Origin: Deltaproteobacteria bacterium
Lineage (GTDB): Bacteria; Myxococcota_A; Polyangia; Polyangiales; Polyangiaceae
Reading direction: 5' to 3'
DNA length: 64,000 nucleotides
Assembly: GCA_003235365.1 (NCBI GenBank)
Contig: QJWJ01000522.1
Coordinates: forward strand, 1-64,000
A program made the position numbers and the translations under genes. Numbering within the stretch: position 1 is the stretch's first letter; each line of letters begins with the position of its first letter. Shown one piece after another: positions 57,587-58,006 of the stretch. The notes under the pieces are model-generated. The model did not search any database, was not told where the DNA came from, and was given only the letters and a program-made list of their open reading frames with translations.

Positions 57587-57668
57587 GCGCGAGTGGCGGA
57601 ATTGGCAGACGCACCGGATTTAGGTTCCGGCGTAGAGATACGTGGAGGTTCGAGTCCTCTCTCGCGCA
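57587..57668 (+). tRNA. tRNA-Leu (anticodon UAG)
   Basis: Acceptor GCGCGAG/CTCGCGC, anticodon stem-loop CCGGA-TTTAGGT-TCCGG (TAG), long variable arm, T-loop GGTTCGAGTCC; CCA not encoded. Confidence 0.95.
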
Positions 57669-57672
57669 CAAG

Positions 57673-57696
57673 AGCCCAGCCCATAGGCTGGGCTTT
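57673..57696 (+). terminator. Intrinsic terminator of tRNA-Leu
   Basis: AGCCCAGCC CATA GGCTGGGCT followed by TT. Confidence 0.75.
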
Positions 57697-57722
57697 GTGC
57701 TCGAGAGGGCCTCAGGGGAACC

Positions 57723-57769
57723 AGTCGCCGCTCTGCGGCTCCTTCGTTCGCGCGAGTCCTCTCTCGCGC
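57723..57769 (+). repeat. 47-bp repeat copy 1, carries modified tRNA-Leu 3' end
   Basis: AGTCGCCGCTCTGCGGCTCCTTCGTTCGCGCGAGTCCTCTCTCGCGC. Confidence 0.95.
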
Positions 57770-57824
57770 TCGAACAGACCAGCCTTGGCAACGCTTTCCG
57801 GCGCGAGTGGGAATCGGGGGAAAC

Positions 57825-57871
57825 AGTCGCCGCTCTGCGGCTCCTTCGTTCGCGCGAGTCCTCTCTCGCGC
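57825..57871 (+). repeat. 47-bp repeat copy 2, identical to copy 1, offset 102 bp
   Basis: AGTCGCCGCTCTGCGGCTCCTTCGTTCGCGCGAGTCCTCTCTCGCGC. Confidence 0.95.
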
Positions 57872-58006
57872 ACGATTCGGGAATGACTGAGGAAACGGAA
57901 ATCGGGGTGGGGGGCGATCGCCCGGGCGGCATGGTGCGCGAGAATTCATTGCGGGTCCTGACTCGGCTCTCATGCTCAGTGGTCACGCGACCCAAGCGGA
58001 GGCTCG

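Follow-up and report, generated by a model that had tools for sequence, protein, structure and literature searches.

Tandem rtT-like hairpin repeats behind tRNA-Leu(UAG) in a Polyangiaceae genome, with stems that mostly suit the local tRNA

The window analysed here, a 64,000-nucleotide stretch of DNA from a Polyangiaceae genome (G000), carries a tRNA-Leu(UAG) gene that is followed by two copies of a hairpin repeat (Table 1), in a locus flanked by genes for a metallophosphoesterase and an M3 peptidase. The 3' end of the tRNA is found at 57651, within the gene itself, and again at 57753 and 57855 (spacing 102/102 bp), with about 85 bp separating the direct repeats; at three mismatches or fewer, GCGCGAGTCCTCTCTCGCGC occurs three times in the window against 0.03 expected. 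Each unit is made up of three parts in the order A'-X-A: A' repeats the tRNA 3' end imperfectly and in inverted orientation, X forms an apical domain, and A repeats the tRNA 3' end directly, beginning in the T-loop. The assembly of the source genome comprises 546 contigs, is contaminated to about 6% and may have collapsed arrays.

Table 1. Features of the tRNA-Leu(UAG) locus, in window coordinates
Feature	Position	Strand	Basis
tRNA-Leu(UAG)	57587..57669	+	ARAGORN; Rfam tRNA 53.8 bits
3' part of tRNA-Leu(UAG), T-loop to acceptor (A), source of downstream copies	57651-57667	+	
9-bp G+C-rich hairpin (T), then TTT only; weak, terminator-like	57673..57696	+	sequence; paired in fold
Hairpin repeat copy 1, A'-X-A	57697..57771	+	covariance model R2 (built partly from both Leu copies), 78.7 bits, E 1.5e-17
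A' of copy 1 (GTGCTCGAGAGGGCCTC), imperfect inverted copy of tRNA 3' end	57697..57713	+	duplex score rank 1/42 tRNA ends; fold
Apical stem-loop GCCGC-TCT-GCGGC, copy 1	57727..57739	+	fold; compensatory changes at its pairs across family
A of copy 1 (CGAGTCCTCTCTCGCGC), direct copy of tRNA 3' end	57753..57769	+	exact repeat
Spacer preceding copy 2, without recognisable terminator	57772..57798	+	9/29 identity to copy-1 stretch
Hairpin repeat copy 2, A'-X-A	57799..57873	+	R2 (built partly from both Leu copies), 68.7 bits
A' of copy 2 (GCGCGAGTGGGAATC)	57801..57815	+	sequence; fold; duplex score rank 2/42 tRNA ends
Apical stem-loop GCCGC-TCT-GCGGC, copy 2	57829..57841	+	fold
A of copy 2, direct copy of tRNA 3' end	57855..57871	+	exact repeat

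A preliminary description of this locus had reported two identical 47-bp elements repeated at a period of 102 bp, each carrying a 4-nt insertion in the copied tRNA end together with the stem-loop GCCGC-TCT-GCGGC. The insertion and the stem-loop are both found in the sequence, and the 102-bp period holds exactly, with the tRNA itself included; the elements are indeed identical, but the identical block is 48 bp long (57722-57769 = 57824-57871). The 7-bp hairpin GCGCGAG/CTCGCGC described there is a possible pairing, but structure prediction gives a longer hairpin, A pairing with the inverted A' upstream of it (57697-57713 in copy 1, 57801-57815 in copy 2). The likeness of GCGCGAGTGG-GAAT to the tRNA 5' end had also been correctly seen: this stretch is the A' arm of the longer hairpin of copy 2, and the likeness is one to be expected of any complement of the acceptor 3' strand. 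The earlier observation is confirmed, being right but incomplete. A comparison of the two copies gives 49/50 identity over X-A, 17/23 over A' and 9/29, which is chance level, over the terminator-adjacent part, so that the hairpin has been held constant and its flank has not.

The repeat belongs to a family. In this genome, copies follow no fewer than eight tRNA genes (Leu-UAG, Arg-ACG, Arg-UCG, Ala-GGC, Ser-UGA, Asn-GUU, Arg-UCU and Arg-CCU), often in tandem, with periods of 114 bp behind Ala-GGC and 91 bp behind Arg-CCU; the trailers were fetched for the tRNA genes of the genome, which amount to 46 Rfam hits including one 3'-partial copy. Covariance model R1 finds 13 places in the genome, all of them tRNA 3' ends or the Ala array except for a copy on contig C408, and X is homologous among elements at different tRNAs (R1, E 4e-11 to 7e-20). 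The preliminary description had proposed a tRNA-derived hairpin repeat family as one of two readings, and this is borne out by a family whose stems are matched to each tRNA; it had held that a sequence never occurring beside other tRNAs would count against mobility, and diverged copies do adjoin other tRNAs. The Arg-ACG element is on contig C180, and the Ala-GGC array extends from C270 to C416, both of which break inside it. The Arg-UCG element (C320) follows a 3'-partial tRNA copy 690 bp behind the full gene, the C406 element follows a 3'-partial copy of Arg-ACG, and candidate remnants are present after Ala-CGC and Val-CAC.

A full U-run terminator stands between the tRNA sequence and the element at four loci (Arg-ACG, Arg-UCG, C406 and Asn), and for this reason the unit may rarely be transcribed. 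Units behind such a hairpin are single, and those without the U-run (Leu, Ala, Ser, Arg-UCU and Arg-CCU) are tandem, in what is a small and unplanned comparison, other genera being able to have single units without a U-run.

Several further features of this genome are worth recording. The A end of the C408 copy (L160, G000:C408:15002-15078, minus strand), CGATTCCCGGCGCCTCCA, has no counterpart among the tRNAs found in the assembly, from which the parent gene may be absent; tRNA-Sec is a guess as to its identity, and tmRNA was rejected, none being found above the cut-off. The 3' end of tRNA-Arg(CCG) coincides with the end of contig C477 (G000:C477:2-75), as expected were a repeat array next, and another genome, G036, has an array behind its tRNA-Arg(CCG). 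At two tRNA-Arg loci (L058, G000:C320 4930-5860; L059, C406; L057, C180 3001-3533), extra 3'-partial tRNA copies lie after a common GGATGGGGGC... sequence, with genes or remnants of DUF559 (a Vsr-like endonuclease) at C180 and C320, and these loci look like the ends of islands inserted at tRNA-Arg. DUF559 was considered as a driver and set aside, since 0 of 29 DUF559 loci from relatives had a tRNA on the fetched stretch.

How closely do the stems follow the tRNA beside which they lie? A and A' mostly suit the local tRNA over other tRNAs. Across all 44 trailers, the direct copies of the own tRNA were equalled by 4 of 20,000 permutations of tRNA ends, and the inverted copies by 27 of 20,000. Ranked arm by arm, in a comparison that was not blind in that the 14 elements and their arm boundaries were chosen by eye, the own tRNA ranks first of 42 ends for A' in 11 of the 14 (the remaining ranks being 2, 2 and 3), and for the direct copy A in 8 of 14, with a poor fit in Asn, Arg-CCU and some of the elements from other genera. 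In all 14, A' suits the tRNA no less well than it suits the A of its own element.

Single units are predicted to fold into one long hairpin, with z-scores of -1.4 to -4.6. In the consensus hairpin of eight elements (alignment A1), 14 of the 24 pairs are changed on both sides, and compensated cells number 38 against a shuffled mean of 17 (0/500 shuffles), collapsing to 4-9 in slid controls; part of the basal covariation is that of different tRNAs, and some apical changes trace a single division of the elements into two types. The apical stem as such adopts several pair combinations, and tandem copies in the Arg-CCG array of G036 differ from one another by compensated changes (ACATGTGC-TGC-GCACATGT versus ACACTTGC-TTC-GCAAGTGC). 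Among non-Watson-Crick cells the ratio of G.U to A.C is 5:3 and 10:5, and because G.U is not clearly above A.C, selection on an RNA is not proven.

The same anatomy is found at four loci in two other genera: G048 Leu, G048 Ser-GGA, G036 Arg-CCG (in tandem) and, more weakly, G036 Leu-UAG. The G048 tRNA-Leu copy was found by R1, which was built without that copy (E 1.4e-8), and the other three were added by inspecting tRNA trailers. With R2, which includes the G048 copy, only G000 and G048 match among 108 genomes of the family, the G048 site lying after tRNA-Leu, in a survey whose first-look filter may lose weak copies. Whole-genome permutation of trailers is significant for inverted copies in G048 (77/5,000) and gives no significance in G036 or in G001, a genome of the same genus as G000. 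Few relatives carry elements and the permutation signal varies by genome, so presence is patchy. Among 34 trailers of G001, only that of Ser-GCU (L210) contains both types of copy, inverted and direct, at a distance of about 190 bp, which is possibly a longer relative of the A'-X-A layout. In another family of the order, the 3' end of tRNA-Leu CAG of G060 (L053) recurs 61 bp downstream of the tRNA as a direct but degraded copy. A core-pattern scan of genome_contigs (84,980 species) returned four matches, none with a tRNA 3' end or repeat nearby, and the sequence type is therefore rare. In an empty-site comparison, the genes neighbouring the window locus had no match beside tRNA-Leu in relatives.

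We consider it probable that the two units at this locus are rtT-like tRNA-trailer hairpin repeats, which template switching or gene conversion has kept matched to the tRNA and which may give rise to an RNA resembling a tRNA acceptor. The basal part of the hairpin into which each unit folds would mimic the adjoining tRNA's acceptor/T-arm helix. Because X is homologous at different tRNAs, one unit appears to have spread and then been re-matched; A' and A would have been re-matched through template switching or through gene conversion in which the tRNA takes part, and tandem multiplication would have come about by recombination between A repeats. On read-through of the weak terminator hairpin, processing of the tRNA precursor could release the unit as a small RNA whose 3' end is tRNA-like. 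Such a product is plausible by analogy with RttR of E. coli, and the least certain element of the proposal is whether the released RNA would have a function at all.

Much of this could in principle arise neutrally, through template switching at the palindromes formed by tRNA plus terminator, followed by slippage or unequal exchange between A copies, with neither function nor RNA being needed. Template switching has been proposed to build and mend RNA hairpins, is known to make and repair their stems, compensatory changes included, and can thereby generate covariation without function (PMC8794818). The fit of A' to the tRNA, at least as good as its fit to its own A in every element ranked, would follow from the tRNA serving as template or from simple decay of A, and the lack of a clear excess of G.U points the same way. 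However, local template switching alone makes no common X, and the contrast in the Leu pair between X-A (49/50) and flank (9/29) requires constraint or conversion. We therefore regard a purely neutral quasi-palindrome as unlikely, while taking it seriously.

More doubtful is a reading based on predicted folds, in which the A-A'-A layout would act in cis as an RNA switch that controls the supply of the tRNA, with E. coli rtT as another case. When tRNA and trailer are folded together, A' is predicted to be able to capture the tRNA 3' strand, with a mean probability of 0.62 in seven element-bearing tRNAs versus 0.08 in 37 others, a difference explained by the inverted copy that the elements carry. 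On read-through, A' would capture the 3' end of the tRNA and the downstream A would neutralise A', so that tRNA folding would depend on the extent of transcription or processing.

What of integration, the other reading in the preliminary description? Class II tRNA integrases have as their core the segment from the T-loop to the tRNA 3' end. Repeated 3' ends could therefore be scars left by such enzymes, with the spacer a decayed attL/attR remnant, and the copied segment does run from T-loop to acceptor end and stand in direct repeat; the two tRNA-Arg loci with extra 3'-partial copies and DUF559 remnants also resemble island ends. An att scar, however, predicts neither an inverted A', nor a common X, nor regular tandem units of 91-114 bp, and whereas spacers at different tRNAs should be unrelated, X and the inverted copy are common to them. 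No integrase or mobile gene lies between the repeats, whose immediate neighbours are the metallophosphoesterase and M3 peptidase genes, and searches of viral contigs, phages and plasmids gave no relative of the repeat. Remnants of repeated integration are thus very improbable, and the earlier interpretation, taken as a whole, is partly supported. Slightly less probable still is a REP/BIME-like palindrome settling at tRNA 3' ends and moved by a RAYT-type transposase: E. coli rttR has been listed among REP-containing sRNAs (PMC12306157) and rtT-like elements have been assigned to BIMEs (PMC2965389), but REPs occupy many intergenic sites, whereas all model matches here bar that on C408 are tRNA 3' ends or the Ala array, and the stems are tRNA-specific.

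Returning to the rtT-like repeat that we favour, its anatomy, in a sequence family unrelated to rtT and behind at least eight tRNA genes, turns what had been the case of a single operon into a class, and suggests that hairpins linked to tRNAs are more widespread as a class. The succession of tRNA 3' end, inverted copy, hairpin and direct copy provides a signature by which the class can be sought computationally, and makes testable the candidate roles of processed RNA, control of tRNA folding and by-product of template switching. It also cautions against taking every tRNA 3' end duplicated close to a tRNA for an integration scar.

Other known systems have individual traits in common with these elements. 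REPs and BIMEs are likewise short, imperfect intergenic hairpins, tandem or clustered, but the present elements are so far confined to tRNA 3' ends (C408 aside) and have stems that fit the local tRNA. Duplications left at att sites by class II integrases also place the tRNA segment from T-loop to 3' end in direct repeat, but the present units have in addition an inverted copy and a common X, and at the window locus the repeats enclose no element. 3'ETS-leuZ and other E. coli tRNA-trailer RNAs derive from sequence behind a tRNA, where the present elements also lie; in the passages of PMC6191717 consulted, 3'ETS-leuZ pairs with the sRNA RyhB and is not described as a repeat or a copy of a tRNA end.

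The closest parallel is provided by the rtT/rttR repeats of E. coli tyrTV (Bosl and Kersten 1991, as cited in PMC4986893 and PMC2965389), whose RNAs are reported there to be released from tRNA transcripts and to have an effect on the stringent response. The Rfam RtT consensus (RF00391), with four copies at tyrTV, has the basal stem GgGaaGGAU/AUCCuuCcC followed by ccaCCACCA, that is, an inverted and a direct tRNA-Tyr end. Downstream of tyrV, E. coli has three 178-bp units, each closing with the tRNA-Tyr 3' end including CCA, with a perfect 10-nt inverted copy upstream (GGGGAAGGAT; 9/1,000 shuffles as good), and annotated RttR (1287066-1287236) has as its last bases the CCA of the direct copy, 178 nt past tyrV. 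X in the present elements is different and shorter, the period is 91-114 rather than 178 bp, and a terminator hairpin often stands between tRNA and unit; they occur with matched stems at at least eight tRNA genes, whereas rtT comes from one operon, and they are known here from DNA sequence, whereas RttR is an annotated RNA. The Rfam RtT model has no match to the present elements even at E <= 1, its gathering score of 45 bits not being reached, nor does R2 match E. coli rtT. We therefore call the elements rtT-like and not RtT, the Rfam score being absent but the anatomy common: in both, the repeat lies directly downstream of a tRNA gene, its basal helix pairs two copies of the tRNA end, one inverted and one direct, the unit closes with the direct one, and units are arranged in tandem.
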